Positions 19,210 to 25,690 of a stretch of 64,000 bases of DNA are shown here, piece by piece. The translations under genes were made by a program, and so were the position numbers. Each line of letters starts with the position of its first letter. Within the stretch, counting starts at the first letter, position 1. Source of the DNA: Streptomyces mirabilis (lineage in GTDB: Bacteria > Actinomycetota > Actinomycetes > Streptomycetales > Streptomycetaceae); NCBI RefSeq assembly GCF_039503195.1, contig NZ_JBCJKP010000001.1:2232001-2296000 (forward strand), read 5' to 3'. Below the pieces are notes generated by a model that saw only the letters and a list, made by a program, of their open reading frames with translations, was not told the origin of the DNA and did no database searches.

Positions 19210-20700
19210 TCAGACGGCGAAGGTGGTGACGACCGCGGCGTGGTCCGAGGGCCAGTCGTTGCCCGCGACCTCGGGCCAGGGACGCGGGGTGCCGGTGACC
19301 AGCGCCCGGGAGTCGAGCACCGTCAGCCCCCGGTGCAGCACGAAGTCGATCCGGTCCTGCGGCTCGGGCCGCCCGCTGCCGTCCTCGTGCTCCACGTGAA
19401 CCGGCGACCAGGTGTGTCCGGGCTCCCGCACGGGGTCGGGATGGGCCTCGCGGTAGGAGTCGCTCAGGCCCGCCTCCTCGGCGGCCCTGGTCACGGGCCA
19501 TTCGACGTCCGGCCAGTCCAGGTGCGAGGGCGCGTTGAAGTCACCGACCAGGACCACGGGGACGGCCTCGGCGGCGGACTCGGCGATCCGTCGCAGGATC
19601 TCCCGCATCTGCTCCAGCCGGACGCCCTCGTGGGCGATCAGCTCGGCCGCCGGGAGCCCGTCGAAGCGGGCCTCGTAGGGGCCGTACGGCGTGTAGTCGA
19701 GGTGGGCGCTCCAGACGTCCACCTCCTGGCCGCCGTCCAGCCGGACGCGCACTCCGGTGCCGCCGTAGAAGCCGACGTCCGGGTCGCCGTGGCGGGCGAT
19801 GATCGGGTAGCGGCTGATGACGCCGAGGTTCTCGCCGGCCCGGTGGTGGTGCCAGCCGAGGGCCTCGGCGAGTTCCTGTGCCGAGGTGCCGTACGTCTCC
19901 TGGAGGCCGACCACGTCCGCGCCCGTCTCGGCGATGACCTTGAGCTGCTTCTCGCGGTGGTCGTCGACCTTCGTCCCGCCGTACCAGAGGTTCCAGCTCA
20001 TCACCCGCAGCTCGCGGGGCGCGACCATGGCGCGCAGCCGGGCCGGGGTCACCTCCTCCAGGCTGGTCAGGACGGTGCGTCCGGGTACGGAGTCGATCGG
20101 CGCGAGCGAGGGCACGGCGAGCACGGCGCACCCCGCCGCCTCGGCGGACGCCACACCCGTCTCGGTGTCCTCCACGGCCACACACGCGGCGGGATCGACG
20201 CCGAGGGCGCGGCAGGCGGCGAGGTAGGGGTCGGGGGCGGGCTTGGTGCGTTCGGTGTCGTCGGCCGTGACGGAGACCGCGAAGTGTTCGGCGCCGAGGG
20301 CCGCGAGGACGGTGTCGGCGACCGCGCGAGGCGACGCGGTCACGAGGGCGGTGGGGACACCCTCGCGGACGAGTTCGCCGAGGAGCCGCAACGCGCCCGG
20401 GCGGGGCACGATGCCGGTGCGGACCCGGTACGCGAACTCCCGGTGCAGCTCGGTGGCGATCTCCCCCACCTCGGCGCCCGTGATCCCGCCCAGCCAGGCG
20501 GCGGTGTACTCGACGGGCCTGCCGAGCACCTCCGGCTGGTCGGCCCCGGTCAGCCGGCGTCCGAGCCCGTCGGCCACCTGCTCCACCGCCTCCCACCACA
20601 GCCGCTCGGTGTCCACGAGCGTGCCGTCCATGTCGAACAGGACTGCCTGGAGGGGGAGTTGGGGGGAGGTGGTGCGGAGGGTCACGGTGCTCTCTTTCAC
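19210..20700 (-). CDS. HAD phosphatase fused to EEP-family phosphodiesterase
   Basis: A 496-residue two-domain enzyme. The N-terminal HAD domain (about 17-225) resembles beta-phosphoglucomutase-type sugar phosphatases and has all four motifs: DMDGT (Asp23, Asp25), VTAS at 120-123, Lys153 and Glu177-Asp178. The C-terminal endonuclease/exonuclease/phosphatase domain (about 230-496) is also complete: Asn237, Glu268, His333, Asp387-x-Asn389, Asp452 and Asp486-His487. No export signal, so it acts in the cytoplasm. It is the last gene of an ABC-importer operon, 29 bp after the ATPase. I infer a phosphodiesterase step followed by a phosphomonoesterase step on the imported substrate. Confidence 0.88.
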   Translation of the reverse strand: MKESTVTLRTTSPQLPLQAVLFDMDGTLVDTERLWWEAVEQVADGLGRRLTGADQPEVLGRPVEYTAAWLGGITGAEVGEIATELHREFAYRVRTGIVPRPGALRLLGELVREGVPTALVTASPRAVADTVLAALGAEHFAVSVTADDTERTKPAPDPYLAACRALGVDPAACVAVEDTETGVASAEAAGCAVLAVPSLAPIDSVPGRTVLTSLEEVTPARLRAMVAPRELRVMSWNLWYGGTKVDDHREKQLKVIAETGADVVGLQETYGTSAQELAEALGWHHHRAGENLGVISRYPIIARHGDPDVGFYGGTGVRVRLDGGQEVDVWSAHLDYTPYGPYEARFDGLPAAELIAHEGVRLEQMREILRRIAESAAEAVPVVLVGDFNAPSHLDWPDVEWPVTRAAEEAGLSDSYREAHPDPVREPGHTWSPVHVEHEDGSGRPEPQDRIDFVLHRGLTVLDSRALVTGTPRPWPEVAGNDWPSDHAAVVTTFAV

Positions 20701-20729
20701 TCGGCGTAAGTCAGTGGGGGGTGCGTCTG

Positions 20730-21806
20730 CTACCGCGTGCGCTCGGCGACCAGCACCGGCCGCTCCGGGAGGCTCACGGTCACGGCGGCCCCCGAGCCGA
20801 GCCCGGCGGCCTCATGGGTGGACAGGTCGGCCTTGACCTCGGTGGCGTCCGGGAGCCGGACGGTGACACGGGTGGCGGCGCCGAGGAAGGCGGTGGCGAC
20901 AACGCGCGCGGTCCCGGCCTCGTCGGCCCGTACCCGCACCGCCTCGGGCCGTACGAGCACGTCGATCTCGGTCGCGGCGGGCGCGTCCCCGTCGACCGGC
21001 AGCCGCTGTCCGAGCACCTCGGCCACGCCGGAGTCCAGCCGCCCCGGAATCCGGCTCATCGTGCCGACGAACTCGGCGACGAAGGCGGTCGCGGGGCGCC
21101 CGTACAGCTCGGCGGGCGCGGCGCACTGTTCGAGCCGCCCGGCCCGCATCACGGCGACGCGGTCCGCCATGGACAACGCCTCTTCCTGATCGTGCGTCAC
21201 GAACAGCGTGGTGATGCCGAGTTCCTGCTGAAGCCGGCGGATCTCCTCGCGCAGGGTGAGTCGCACCTTGGCGTCCAGGGCGGAGAGGGGCTCGTCGAGC
21301 AGCAGCACGCGCGGACGCAGGGCGAGCGCGCGGGCCAGCGCGATGCGCTGCTGCTGGCCGCCGGAGAGCTGGTGCGGGAACCGCTCGCCCTTGTCGGCGA
21401 GTCCCACGAGGTCGAGCAACTCGGCCGCGCGGGAACGCCGTTCGACGGTTCGCACCTTGCGCATCCGCAGCCCGAAGGCCACGTTGTCGAGGGCGCTGAG
21501 GTGCGGGAAGAGACTGTAGGACTGGAAGACCATCCCCGCGTCGCGGCGGTGGGCCGGGACCCGGGTGACGTCCTCGCCGTCGACCAGCACCTCGCCGGAG
21601 TCGGGGTGTTCGAACCCGGCGAGCATGCGCAGCGCGGTGGTCTTGCCGCAGCCGGAGGGGCCGAGCAGGGCGAGGAGTTCACCGGGACGGGCGGTCAGGT
21701 CGAGGCCGTCGAGGGCGACGGTCGGGCCGAACTCCCTTCGCAGGCCTCGGAATTCAACGGTGGCGGCCTTGGCGTCGGCGGCCTTCTCAAGCGTGGTGAC
21801 GGTCAT
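20730..21806 (-). CDS. ABC importer ATPase with TOBE domain
   Basis: Nucleotide-binding subunit, 358 residues: Walker A GPSGCGKT, Q-loop VFQSYSLF, signature LSGGQQQR, Walker B LLLDEPLSALD and the switch His in FVTHDQEEAL. The C-terminal TOBE domain (about 265-355) places it with the iron(III)/spermidine/2-aminoethylphosphonate importers. Follows the two permease genes by 3 bp. Confidence 0.93.
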   Translation of the reverse strand: MTVTTLEKAADAKAATVEFRGLRREFGPTVALDGLDLTARPGELLALLGPSGCGKTTALRMLAGFEHPDSGEVLVDGEDVTRVPAHRRDAGMVFQSYSLFPHLSALDNVAFGLRMRKVRTVERRSRAAELLDLVGLADKGERFPHQLSGGQQQRIALARALALRPRVLLLDEPLSALDAKVRLTLREEIRRLQQELGITTLFVTHDQEEALSMADRVAVMRAGRLEQCAAPAELYGRPATAFVAEFVGTMSRIPGRLDSGVAEVLGQRLPVDGDAPAATEIDVLVRPEAVRVRADEAGTARVVATAFLGAATRVTVRLPDATEVKADLSTHEAAGLGSGAAVTVSLPERPVLVAERTR

Positions 21807-21809
21807 GGT

Positions 21810-22688
21810 TCATCCCCGGGATGCGGAAGCGGAACGGGAGCGCCCGCCGAGCCCGGCGAGCGAGAGGAGCAGGGCCCAGGTGACGAGCAGGCTGAGCACG
21901 GAGACGGCGACGGAGAGCTGGGCCTGCGAGCCGCCGACGCTGTAGATCCACACGGCGAAGGGCTGGAAGCCGAGCAGCTGGGCGACGGTGAACTCGCCGA
22001 GCACCAGGGCCAGCGTGAGGAAGGAGGCGTTGAGCAGCGCTCCGCGCAGATTGGGCAGCACGACCCGTACCAGCGCCTGCGGCCAGTTCGCCCCGCAGCT
22101 GCGCGCGGCCTCGACGAGGGTGCGTACGTCGACGGCGCGCAGCCCGGCGTCCAGGGCCCGGTACACGAACGGCAGTGCCATCACGACGTACGCGAGGACG
22201 AGCACTACGGGGAAGTCGGGGTTCTGGAGTGCCACGAACGTCTCGAAGAGCGGGGTGCGGGAGAGGTGTTCGGGTCCCCACTTGAGGACCGTGGCGATCC
22301 CGGCGACGAAGGCGATCGGCGGGACGACCAGCGGCAGCGAGCAGATCACCTCCACCACGGGCCGCAGCTTCGGGGCACCGAGCCGCAGCGCGACCATCGC
22401 GGGCACCATCAGCAGCAGGACCACGGCGATGGTGGCGGCGGCCAGTTCCAGCGAGAGCAGCAGGCTGGAGCCGAAGCCGTCGGCGGAGACGATCTGGCGG
22501 TACGCGTCGAAGGTGATCCCCTGGTTCGGCACGTCGACCGTGAAGACCACGGAGGCGGCGAGCGGGACCAGGAAGTAGAGCCCGGCGCAGACGAGGACGA
22601 CCCCGCGCCAGGGACGCACCCGTACGGACTTGTTCGCCCCGCGGGCGGGCTTCAGGACCCGAGCGGGATTGTTCAGGCTTCCAGCCAT
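21810..22688 (-). CDS. ABC importer permease, second subunit
   Basis: Integral membrane subunit of 292 residues with about six segments and the ATPase-docking loop EAARSCGANWPQALVRVVLP. The true start is ATG at 22688 (MAGSLNNPA), 16 bp inside the preceding permease gene; the longer frame is a shadow. Pairs with the permease upstream to form the pore. Confidence 0.9.
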   Translation of the reverse strand: MAGSLNNPARVLKPARGANKSVRVRPWRGVVLVCAGLYFLVPLAASVVFTVDVPNQGITFDAYRQIVSADGFGSSLLLSLELAAATIAVVLLLMVPAMVALRLGAPKLRPVVEVICSLPLVVPPIAFVAGIATVLKWGPEHLSRTPLFETFVALQNPDFPVVLVLAYVVMALPFVYRALDAGLRAVDVRTLVEAARSCGANWPQALVRVVLPNLRGALLNASFLTLALVLGEFTVAQLLGFQPFAVWIYSVGGSQAQLSVAVSVLSLLVTWALLLSLAGLGGRSRSASASRG

Positions 22689-23584
22689 CGCGCGCTCCGT
22701 CGTTGCAGGGGCAGGTACACGGCCATGACCAGGCCCGCGATGAGGACCATGTCGAGGCTGAGGGCGAGCGCCACGTTCTCCTGGCCGACCAGGACGTTGC
22801 CGGAGATGGCGTCGGCGATCTGCAGGGTGACCAGCGGGACCGCGCTGCCCACCATGGCCGCCGCGGTGGCGTACGCGGCGAAGGCGCTGCCGAAGAGCAG
22901 CACGAGGCCGCCGAGCAGGGAGGGCGTGAGGACGGGGAGGGCGATGTGCCGCCAGTACTGGATTCCGGTGGCGCCGTTGTTCTGTGCGGCCTCGCGCCAC
23001 TGGGAGCGCAGACCGTCCAGGGCGGGCGTGATGGTGAGGACCATCAGCGGGATCAGGAAGTACAGGTAGACGATGACCAGGCCCCAGAAGCTGTAGAGGT
23101 TCCAGCCCTCGTCCTTCAGGCCCAGGTGCTCGGTCAGGACACCCGCGTTGCCGAGGGTGGCGACGAACGCGAAGGCCAGCGGCACACCGCCGAAGTTGGC
23201 GAGGACGCCGGACGCGGTGAGGACCGCCTCGCGCAGGGCACGGAAGCGGGAGGTCACCACGGCCTGGGCGAGCGGCAGTCCGAGGACGGTCGCGATGCCC
23301 GCGGAGACCGCGGACAGCTTGACGCTGCCGATCAGGGCGGTGAGGTAGGCGCCCTGGAGCGAGTCGGTCAGGTTGGCCGTGGTGTACGAGGTGGCGCCGG
23401 TCGTCTGGTCCTTGACGGTGAAGGCGCCGTTCAGCATGGCCAGGGCCGGGATGCCGAAGGCGATCGCGACGAAGACGAGCAGCGGGAGCACGGCGAGCCA
23501 GCCGGGGGCGCGGCGCCGCCGCCGCTGGGAAGCGGCGGCGGCGGGCGTCACGTCGGCCTCGGCCTCGGTGAGGAGGGTGGTCAT
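22673..23584 (-). CDS. ABC importer permease, first subunit
   Basis: Membrane subunit of 303 residues with about six segments and the docking loop EAAQNNGATGIQYWRHIALP. ATG at 23584 overlaps the binding-protein stop by 4 bp (ATGA), confirming the start. Resembles the permeases of 2-aminoethylphosphonate/iron-type importers. Confidence 0.9.
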   Translation of the reverse strand: MTTLLTEAEADVTPAAAASQRRRRRAPGWLAVLPLLVFVAIAFGIPALAMLNGAFTVKDQTTGATSYTTANLTDSLQGAYLTALIGSVKLSAVSAGIATVLGLPLAQAVVTSRFRALREAVLTASGVLANFGGVPLAFAFVATLGNAGVLTEHLGLKDEGWNLYSFWGLVIVYLYFLIPLMVLTITPALDGLRSQWREAAQNNGATGIQYWRHIALPVLTPSLLGGLVLLFGSAFAAYATAAAMVGSAVPLVTLQIADAISGNVLVGQENVALALSLDMVLIAGLVMAVYLPLQRRSARWLEA

Positions 23585-24732
23585 CCGGAGACGGCCTTGC
23601 CCCAGCCCTGCGCGAGGACCGTCTTGGCCTTGGCCTGCTGGGCCTCGGTCGGGAAGCTCGGCGTGCCGGAGACCGCGGGGAGCTTGGCGGCGGCGGTCTT
23701 GTCGAGGGTGCCGGCCGTCTGCATGGCGGTCATCAGGGCTGGGCGCGCGTAGCCCTTGAGCCAGAGGTTCTGGCCCTCGGCGCTGTAGAGGTACTCCTGC
23801 CACAGGCGGGCGGCCGCCGGGTGCGGGGCGTCCTTGTTGACGGCCTGGGAGTAGTACTGGGAGAACTTGCCGTCCGCGGGGACCGTGACCGTCCAGTCGA
23901 CGCCCTTGGACTTGAACTCGTCGGCGTAACCGGCGTTCAGGTAGTCCCAGTCGATGCTGATCGGGGTCTCGCCCTTCTCGACGGTGGCCGGGGTCGACTC
24001 GACGGGCGTGTAGTTGCCGTTCTTCTTCAGCTTGGCGAAGAAGTCCAGGCCGGGCTGGATGTCGTCGAACGAACCGCCGTTGGCCAGCGAGGCCGCGTAG
24101 ACACCACCGAAGGCCGAACCGGACTTGGTGGGGTTGCCGTTGAGGGCGACCTGGCCCTTGTACTCCGGCTTGAGCAGGTCCTTGAAGGTCTTCGGGCACT
24201 CCTTGACCTTCTTGGCGTCGCAGCCGATGGAGATGTAGCCGCCGTAGTCGTTGAACCAGCGGCCCTGCGCGTCCTTCTGCCCCTCGGGGATGTCGGCGAA
24301 GGCGGTCACCTTGTACGGCGCGAGCAGCCCCTGCTGGGCGGCGCTGAGCGCGAACGAGCTGCCCAGGTCGAGGACGTCCGGGGCACGGTCCTGCCCCTTC
24401 CTCGACGTCACGGCGTTGATCTCGTCCTGGCTGGAGCCGTCCGGGTTCTCCACCTCGATCTTGATGCCGTACTTCTTCTTGAAGCCGTCGATCAGGGCGC
24501 CGTAGTTGGCCCAGTCACGGGGCAGCGCGATCGCGTGCAGCGTGCCCTCCTTCTTGGCGGCCTTGACCAGGGCGTCGAGGCCGCCGAAGTCCGCGGCGGA
24601 GGTCGCGGTGGCCGCGCTCTTGCCGTCGGCGGTGGTCGACTTGTCGTCGGGGGCCGCGCCACAGGCGCTGAGGGCGAGGGCGGCGGCGACGGCGAGGCCG
24701 CCGGTGAGGACGGCGGTCCTCGGCAGGAACAC
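23581..24732 (-). CDS. ABC importer substrate-binding lipoprotein
   Basis: A 383-residue type-II periplasmic-binding-type lipoprotein: hydrophobic leader and lipobox LSAC followed by a Ser/Thr/Ala-rich linker, then the binding fold (DALVKAAKKEGTLHAIALPRDWANYG, FKKKYGIKIEVENPDGSSQDEINAV). It belongs near the iron/2-aminoethylphosphonate group. Two close GTGs are possible; 24732 lies 9 bp from GGAGAG and is preferred over 24738. First gene of the operon; the promoter region holds a strong inverted repeat. Substrate unproven; the HAD-EEP fusion downstream suggests an organophosphate diester. Confidence 0.88.
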   Translation of the reverse strand: MFLPRTAVLTGGLAVAAALALSACGAAPDDKSTTADGKSAATATSAADFGGLDALVKAAKKEGTLHAIALPRDWANYGALIDGFKKKYGIKIEVENPDGSSQDEINAVTSRKGQDRAPDVLDLGSSFALSAAQQGLLAPYKVTAFADIPEGQKDAQGRWFNDYGGYISIGCDAKKVKECPKTFKDLLKPEYKGQVALNGNPTKSGSAFGGVYAASLANGGSFDDIQPGLDFFAKLKKNGNYTPVESTPATVEKGETPISIDWDYLNAGYADEFKSKGVDWTVTVPADGKFSQYYSQAVNKDAPHPAAARLWQEYLYSAEGQNLWLKGYARPALMTAMQTAGTLDKTAAAKLPAVSGTPSFPTEAQQAKAKTVLAQGWGKAVSG

Positions 24733-24779: not shown

Positions 24780-24797
24780 AACTTGTCTGAACAAGTT
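24780..24797. promoter_or_regulatory. Inverted repeat, likely GntR operator of the importer operon
   Basis: Perfect inverted repeat AACTTGT-CTGA-ACAAGTT in the divergent region between the binding-protein gene and gntR, about 48 bp before the former's start, where it would overlap a promoter. GntR/HutC regulators bind repeats of this size. Confidence 0.65.
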
Positions 24798-24917
24798 GGC
24801 CCCAGTAGGCCCGGCGTGGGTGTCCTGTTCGTAAACTTTGGCGAAACCGTGACCCTTGATTCCCTGCACAATCCCGGCCCGCGCCGATCACGTTCGGATC
24901 TCGATTAGGCTGGTCAC

Positions 24918-24929
24918 GCTGTGCACAGC
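24918..24929. promoter_or_regulatory. Palindrome at the gntR promoter
   Basis: Perfect 12-bp palindrome GCTGTGCACAGC ending 20 bp before the gntR ATG. It may be a second operator or part of the 5' leader; its sequence differs from the inverted repeat at 24780. Confidence 0.35.
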
Positions 24930-24949: not shown

Positions 24950-25690
24950 ATGCCGGCGCGACACGAGGAGATCGCCGACGAGCTGCGGCGCGCCATCGAC
25001 CGCGAGGAGTACACGGTGGGCAGTCTGCTGCCCGCGGAGACGGACCTCGCGGCCCAGTACGGCGTGGCCCGCGGCACGGTCCGCCAGGCCGTCGCGGCCC
25101 TGACCGCCGAGGGCCTCATCGGCTCCCGCCAGGGCGCCCGCCGGGTGGTCCTCGCCAGCCGCCGCAGCCAGAGCTTCGCCGAACTGCGCAGCTTCGCCCA
25201 GTGGGCGCGCGCGATGGGCCGGGAGGCGACGGGACACGTCATCGAGCAGGAGAGGCGCCCGGCGACCACGGAGGACGCCGGGCGCCTCCAACTCCCCGAG
25301 AGGACACCGGTGTTGCACGTCCTGCGGGTCCGCGGTCTGGACGGCGAGCCGGTCCTCCTGGAGCGGACCGTGTACGCGGACTGGATCTCCCCCGCCGTCG
25401 AGGCCATCGAGCCCGACTGCCCCTCGGTCACCCAGCGGCTCTACGAGGACACCGGCCTGGTCTTCGCCTACGGCGAGCACGTCATCGACGCGGTGGCCGC
25501 GGGCGCCCAGGACGCCGACCTCCTCGGCGTCCGCCGCACCAGCCCCCTCCTGCGGGTCCGCCGCGTCACCACCACCCGCGAAGGCCGCCCGGTGGAATGG
25601 TCCGACGACCGCTACCGCTCGGACGCGGTGAGCTTCAGCGTCCACAACTCCATCGGCAACAACGCGCTGGCACGAAAGACAGCGGAGTAA
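24950..25690 (+). CDS. GntR-family (HutC/UTRA) transcriptional regulator
   Basis: A 246-residue regulator: N-terminal winged helix (about 5-70, ETDLAAQYGVARGTVRQAVAALTAEGLI) and a C-terminal UTRA ligand-binding domain (about 90-235, with PVLLERTVYADW and PLLRVRRVTTTREGRPVEWSDDRYR). UTRA domains sense small sugar phosphates, amino acids or phosphonates. Divergent from the ABC importer-phosphohydrolase operon, so very probably its repressor, released by the imported compound or its breakdown product. Confidence 0.9.
   Translation: MPARHEEIADELRRAIDREEYTVGSLLPAETDLAAQYGVARGTVRQAVAALTAEGLIGSRQGARRVVLASRRSQSFAELRSFAQWARAMGREATGHVIEQERRPATTEDAGRLQLPERTPVLHVLRVRGLDGEPVLLERTVYADWISPAVEAIEPDCPSVTQRLYEDTGLVFAYGEHVIDAVAAGAQDADLLGVRRTSPLLRVRRVTTTREGRPVEWSDDRYRSDAVSFSVHNSIGNNALARKTAE

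Follow-up and report, generated by a model that had tools for sequence, protein, structure and literature searches.

The 64,000-nucleotide stretch of Streptomyces mirabilis DNA considered here, termed the window (positions 2232001–2296000 of the 11.1-Mb genome), contains an operon for an ATP-binding cassette (ABC) importer, the final gene of which encodes a fusion of a HAD phosphatase domain with an EEP phosphodiesterase domain. The five genes run on the minus strand from 24732 to 19210 and encode, in order, a lipoprotein-type solute-binding protein (SBP_bac_6; 23581–24732), permease A (BPD_transp_1; 22673–23584), permease B (BPD_transp_1; 21810–22694), an ATPase with a TOBE domain (20730–21806) and the 496-residue fusion protein (19210–20700); a GntR/UTRA regulator is encoded divergently on the plus strand (24950–25690; PF00392 and PF07702). 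With the start codons assumed for the binding protein and both permeases, adjacent genes of the operon overlap or are separated by no more than 29 bases. Every part of the operon and the regulator were assigned by Pfam above curated cut-offs; comparisons with NCBIfam models refer to the best 25 matches listed for each protein. The first-pass annotation, made from the letters and open reading frames, had described an ABC importer operon ending in a single HAD and EEP polypeptide, with a divergent UTRA regulator, and both its reading frame positions and this description agree with the Pfam assignments.

The HAD domain of the fusion (residues 18–196; 20113–20649, minus strand) belongs to the HAD-IA group, with matches to PF00702 (105 bits, cut-off 26.4), PF13419 (100 bits) and TIGR01509 (61 bits, cut-off 29.4) and with the catalytic motif residues present, and the EEP domain (residues 234–487; 19240–20001, minus strand) belongs to the EEP superfamily, scoring 69.8 bits with PF03372 (Exo_endo_phos; cut-off 24.5) and containing the catalytic N, E, H, D/N, D and DH. 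The 13 catalytic residues that had been named as intact are all invariant in an alignment of 27 fusions that includes the protein from the window: Asp23, Asp25, Lys153, Glu177 and Asp178 in the HAD domain, and Asn237, Glu268, His333, Asp387, Asn389, Asp452, Asp486 and His487 in the EEP domain. The closest solved relatives of the HAD domain are sugar/polyol phosphatases and β-phosphoglucomutases; profile matches of the EEP domain are all weak, with ExoIII-type nucleases first (4e-8) and sphingomyelinase C also present (8e-6). A sequencing accident is excluded as the source of the fusion because 26 further genomes hold both domains in frame, with no stop, and both HAD and PF03372 were present in all 120 matches listed of the 1448 database matches to the protein; a homologue from S. 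avermitilis, with 80% identity, is among those listed. No signal peptide or other export signal is visible in it by eye, suggesting that both halves are cytoplasmic. In an AlphaFold model, each domain is predicted well (mean pLDDT of 85 for the domains), but the relative placement of the two is uncertain (pTM 0.66). It should be noted that the two fusions from genus g7 (L062:8747–10528 and L063:8296–10086) contain an Ig-like domain between the halves, which is unusual for a cytoplasmic enzyme.

The binding protein is nearest, both by sequence and by fold, to 5t1p, a protein from Campylobacter jejuni that we take to be Cj0727. The importer had been assigned initially to the 2-aminoethylphosphonate (AEP)/iron type, but this assignment was not upheld, since the binding protein falls in the 5t1p clade and scores below the cut-offs of the AEP and iron models. 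Its structural neighbors include the hexose-phosphate binders AfuA and VcA0625, and the fold is also that of iron and polyamine binders. In evenly drawn samples, the binding protein was present at E ≤ 1e-120 in 180 of 297 genomes of the family and at E ≤ 1e-40 in 30 of 396 genomes of the phylum, and the fusion was found in 27 of the 297, comprising 25 of the same genus (the window counted) and two of genus g7. The proposed linkage of the fusion to the importer was borne out by the genomes, the fusion being in frame behind the importer in all 26 further loci. Operon structure was compared in 124 loci chosen partly via HAD/EEP matches and partly via binding protein matches, so that the fused fraction is enriched by design among the 101 complete operons that were left when 23 loci without a complete binding protein-permease A-permease B-ATPase set had been dropped. 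The HAD gene is downstream on the same strand in 94 of the 101, lies beyond the regulator in two and was not recognized in five; the regulator is divergent in 91. The HAD protein is thus a near-constant partner of the importer, with which it forms a core, and the EEP half is an addition to this core in one group.

EEP-related genes are also found near non-fused operons. In one (L066), the ATPase gene is directly followed by an intact EEP gene, the product of which has an apparent signal peptide (by eye), and the HAD gene lies beyond the regulator; in 15 others, from genera g14 (presumably Kitasatospora) and g7, an EEP-like gene starts 5.7–12.1 kb from the binding protein gene. All 11 EEP-like proteins from these operons that were aligned have lost the GDFN motif and the His of the final DH, and extra N-terminal domains are present (L071:11007–12425; L069 and L072–L087; genera g14 and g7), in L071 with a match to the Ig-like family Big_9 that is under its cut-off; in numerous genomes these inactive-looking genes are found ahead of a phospholipase C gene, and they have the appearance of a conserved pseudoenzyme. 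Phospholipase C-type (PF04185) genes lie between −5.5 and +12.5 kb of the binding protein gene in 26 of the 75 non-fused operons, 12 adjoining the operon or regulator and 14 located past the EEP-like gene; the 26 fused operons have no such neighbor. Five of them (L067, L071, L088, L093 and L096) were scored with Pfam and the rest were called by tblastn; two of the four scored with NCBIfam, those of L071 (698 bits, cut-off 580) and L088, pass the phosphocholine-specific phospholipase C model. The genome that contains the window has two phosphocholine-specific phospholipase C genes above this cut-off, neither of which is near the operon.

Relatives of the importer outside the family are associated with phosphoesterases of other folds. 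In a distant branch, drawn mostly from Coriobacteriia and Firmicutes, each of the 71 complete operons has a gene for a PHP or PF01663 (type-I phosphodiesterase) protein within or next to it, as detected with probes that came from those same loci and from L125. The comparison started from 80 loci, one of which, from a Mailhella metagenome-assembled genome, belongs to neither group; nine that were cut by a contig end or had no ATPase gene were excluded, and four of these nine still have a phosphoesterase. A PF01663 diesterase and a HisJ-type PHP protein are encoded together in eight loci (L233, L235, L237–L239, L242, L243 and L253), a pair that can be regarded as the analogue of EEP plus HAD. 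The Enterococcus faecium plasmid pFYH006-137K (L283:5472–11018) encodes a complete 5t1p-type importer, with a divergent PHP gene, the binding protein, an alkaline-phosphatase-family gene and a permease; the binding protein was matched in 179 Enterococcus plasmid records. In an Agrobacterium relative, the phosphodiesterase gene overlaps the ATPase gene, and in L115 (1324–7327) a gene for a GlpD-type/glycerophosphate-oxidase-like protein (DAO and DAO_C) is just upstream of the importer on the same strand. Some copies of the binding protein have no recognized permease or ATPase gene nearby (L098:6950–8032; L099:7025–8056; also L127, L129, L144, L147, L150, L153, L159, L165, L172 and L173, with L127 probably representing the same record as L099); the plasmid copies in L098 and L099 each follow a gene for a SpoIIE-family phosphatase, an arrangement hinting that the binding protein may work with a sensor. 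Thioclava encodes a relative of the binding protein (L104:5626–6633) with a PhoH gene immediately ahead of it.

Three sequence elements lie in the 217 bp between the operon and the regulator gene. The palindrome ACTTGT-N4-ACAAGT, with perfect 6-base arms (24781–24796), has its sole exact occurrence in the genome here, as expected for the operator of a dedicated local regulator. Among the 81 promoters (27 of them from fused operons) that could be aligned with both start regions, from the 125 provided by the 124 loci and the window, it is present in 27 of 27 fused and nine of 54 others, and it is probably the site of the UTRA regulator. Upstream of the operator is a PHO-box-like run of 11-nt repeats (24819–24847, minus strand) with conserved TT pairs 11 nt apart. 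GTTCACC is the published PHO motif of S. coelicolor (PMC4415409), and two copies at 11-nt spacing were scored over the promoters against 420 permutations of the same letters. The GTTCACC pair ranks first of 420 over the 81 promoters (score 10.63; mean 9.13, S.D. 0.27), the next two permutations (10.57 and 10.46) being one- and two-base shifts of the motif itself, and a spacing of 11 outscores spacings of 7–10 and 12–15. Of the 54 non-fused promoters, 31% have at least 12 matches out of 14, and in this set the motif ranks third of 420, behind two of its own shifts. The signal is weaker in the 27 fused promoters, and control of the operon by PhoP is taken as likely, as judged from the promoter sequences. 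A second palindrome, CTGTGCACAG (24919–24928), beside the regulator gene, is fully or almost fully conserved across the fused promoters that were aligned and may possibly be the site of a second regulator; such a palindrome also turned up in 10 of 100 shuffled versions of the window.

We consider it likely, with a probability of about 0.6, that the operon couples a phosphate-starvation-linked importer of a small phosphate ester to a hydrolase that works in two steps in the cytoplasm. In the mechanism that we infer, the lipoprotein would bind the ester outside the cell, and both permeases, together with the ATPase, would take it in intact; a diester, if that is the ligand, would be cut by the EEP half into an alcohol and a monoester, from which the HAD half would then free inorganic phosphate. 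PhoP would probably activate transcription, and the UTRA protein, bound to its single operator near the promoter, would probably repress it as long as neither the ester nor a product of it is available. Since enzymes of the EEP superfamily cleave phosphodiesters and HAD-IA enzymes like this one cleave phosphomonoesters, the fused form would naturally convert a diester first to a monoester and then to phosphate. Glycerophosphodiesters are among the likeliest ligands, as are the head-group or glycerol phosphates released when phospholipids are degraded; the phospholipase C and GlpD-type neighbors point to phospholipid-derived esters, diester or monoester alike. The first-pass annotation had raised the possibility that EEP and HAD work one after the other on an imported compound such as a glycerophosphodiester or sugar phosphodiester. 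Import followed by cytoplasmic cleavage of a phosphate ester is supported by the association of phosphoesterases of unrelated folds with the same importer clade, by the PHO-box-like element and by the unique operator, but serial cleavage of a diester can be put forward only conditionally.

Several observations weigh against this interpretation. Most operons of the family have the HAD gene alone and no EEP gene, and a diester is therefore not an obligatory ligand; the phospholipase C neighbors fit a monoester ligand as much as a diester, and the 14 behind the EEP-like gene are farther off. The promoter and neighbor counts rest on related sequences and genomes. When the 27 fused promoters are scored alone, the PHO motif ranks fifth of 420 and a spacing of 10 exceeds one of 11 (10.63 versus 10.26). 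In a set of 28 loci, neighbors were inspected, mostly by eye, in 13 (ten from other actinobacteria, two Coriobacteriia-like and one of the family); no phosphoesterase adjoins the importer in eight of the ten from other actinobacteria, one of these eight being the locus with the GlpD-type neighbor. Similarly, no phosphoesterase neighbor was found in eight of 13 annotated plasmid loci with an incomplete gene table, these 13 being picks among the matches listed, with two orphan binding protein loci and the unannotated records uncounted.

An alternative, unlikely but deserving serious consideration, is that a phosphomonoester such as a head-group, glycerol or sugar phosphate is imported and dephosphorylated by the HAD enzyme alone, the EEP half being an accessory for minority substrates. 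This would account for the constancy of HAD but not of EEP; the phospholipase C-type genes near non-fused operons would make monoesters outside the cell, the intact EEP protein encoded in the operon of L066 has an apparent signal peptide, and hexose-phosphate binders are among the structural neighbors of the binding protein. However, the eight named EEP residues are kept in every one of the 27 fused proteins, which have no visible export signal; the fused operons, moreover, have no phospholipase C-type neighbor, and the PF01663 and HisJ-type PHP genes are paired in the eight distant relatives. The distinction between diester and monoester may not be a sharp one, since the Ugp system of Escherichia coli handles both, according to PMC7866108.

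Other ligands are far less probable. A role in AEP uptake, with a phosphonatase-like HAD enzyme, is very improbable: AEP models are the top NCBIfam matches of the binding protein and the ATPase (PhnT2, 395 bits for the latter), and PhnF is that of the regulator, but PhnS (64 bits, cut-off 395), PhnS2, NF011620 (75, cut-off 310), PhnT, PhnT2 (cut-off 458), PhnU, PhnU2 and PhnV are all below their cut-offs, as are phosphonatase TIGR01422 (46, cut-off 220) and PhnF itself (TIGR02325; 128.8, cut-off 156.8). Also, there is no aminotransferase or C-P lyase subunit among the families listed for the operon, and an EEP enzyme is needless for AEP. Import of ferric iron or a polyamine, with the hydrolases merely carried along, is less probable still; it would fit the fold, common to iron and polyamine binders, and the ATPase comes close to the polyamine potA subfamily (337 bits, cut-off 356), but the scores with this model, sfuA (36, cut-off 93) and the ferric ATPase model (329, cut-off 496) all fall below the cut-offs, and the phosphoesterase partners and PHO-like element also speak against it. 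Of the two Tyr residues (YY) near residue 294 of the binding protein, the first is Phe, Pro or Gly in distant members, and this YY may correspond to the pair of tyrosines that serves the iron sites of proteins with this fold. A chance fusion in which the EEP half acts as a nuclease or in repair, as its weak first matches to ExoIII-type nucleases might suggest, is equally improbable given the match to sphingomyelinase C and its constant position, in frame, behind the importer.

The uptake of an intact phosphate ester followed by hydrolysis in the cytoplasm may extend beyond Streptomyces. We propose, with somewhat less than even confidence, that importers of the 5t1p type form the core of a widespread and hitherto undescribed class of systems for scavenging phosphorus, which take up phosphodiesters whole for cleavage in the cytoplasm and in which the diesterase (EEP, PF01663, PHP or calcineurin-like) and monoesterase (HAD or HisJ-type PHP) modules are freely swapped between unrelated folds, and that the Streptomyces fusion passes the monoester directly between active sites. 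The operon is a concrete candidate for intact phosphate ester uptake in Streptomyces, and it points to a role for the unassigned importers of 5t1p type in bacteria from gut and soil. No publication on this operon or fusion was found in the literature searched, as judged by titles and the beginnings of abstracts. A 2021 review (PMC7866108) states that Streptomyces lack the ugp cluster and uhp, that no evidence exists in this genus for sugar phosphates being taken up while still phosphorylated, and that internalization of glycerol 3-phosphate is an open question.

Among other systems, the importers of Coriobacteriia and Firmicutes have the same binding protein clade and operon order as that of the window, but carry PHP (CehA/McbA-like or HisJ-type) or type-I phosphodiesterase proteins and not a HAD-EEP fusion. 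The C. jejuni cj0727–cj0733 operon, with a binding protein of the same clade, presumably contains a type-I phosphodiesterase and a HAD protein, without EEP or a fusion; the Cj0727–Cj0755 region appears in a table of PMC2292242 under phosphate regulated genes, iron uptake and more. AfuA and VcA0625 are related to the binding protein in fold, with phosphorylated hexose as ligand. Corynebacterium glutamicum pctABCD, likened here by description only, is an ABC importer induced by phosphate starvation whose ligand is not known, according to PMC3353115. The UgpC model is not reached by the ATPase of the window (287 bits, cut-off 432), and none of the Pfam families assigned to the operon proteins is GDPD. 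The Ugp systems have a binding protein of another family and a GDPD-type diesterase, UgpQ, instead of an EEP enzyme, and are not known to have a HAD partner. Nevertheless, Ugp of E. coli and C. glutamicum (UgpBAEC with UgpQ) resembles the present system in combining phosphate-regulated ABC import of organophosphates with a linked phosphodiesterase, as described in PMC7866108, PMC4415409 and PMC3353115. Import with linked hydrolysis is thus already known from Ugp, and the system described here differs from it in the clade of its binding protein, in its hydrolases and their fusion, and in its regulator.

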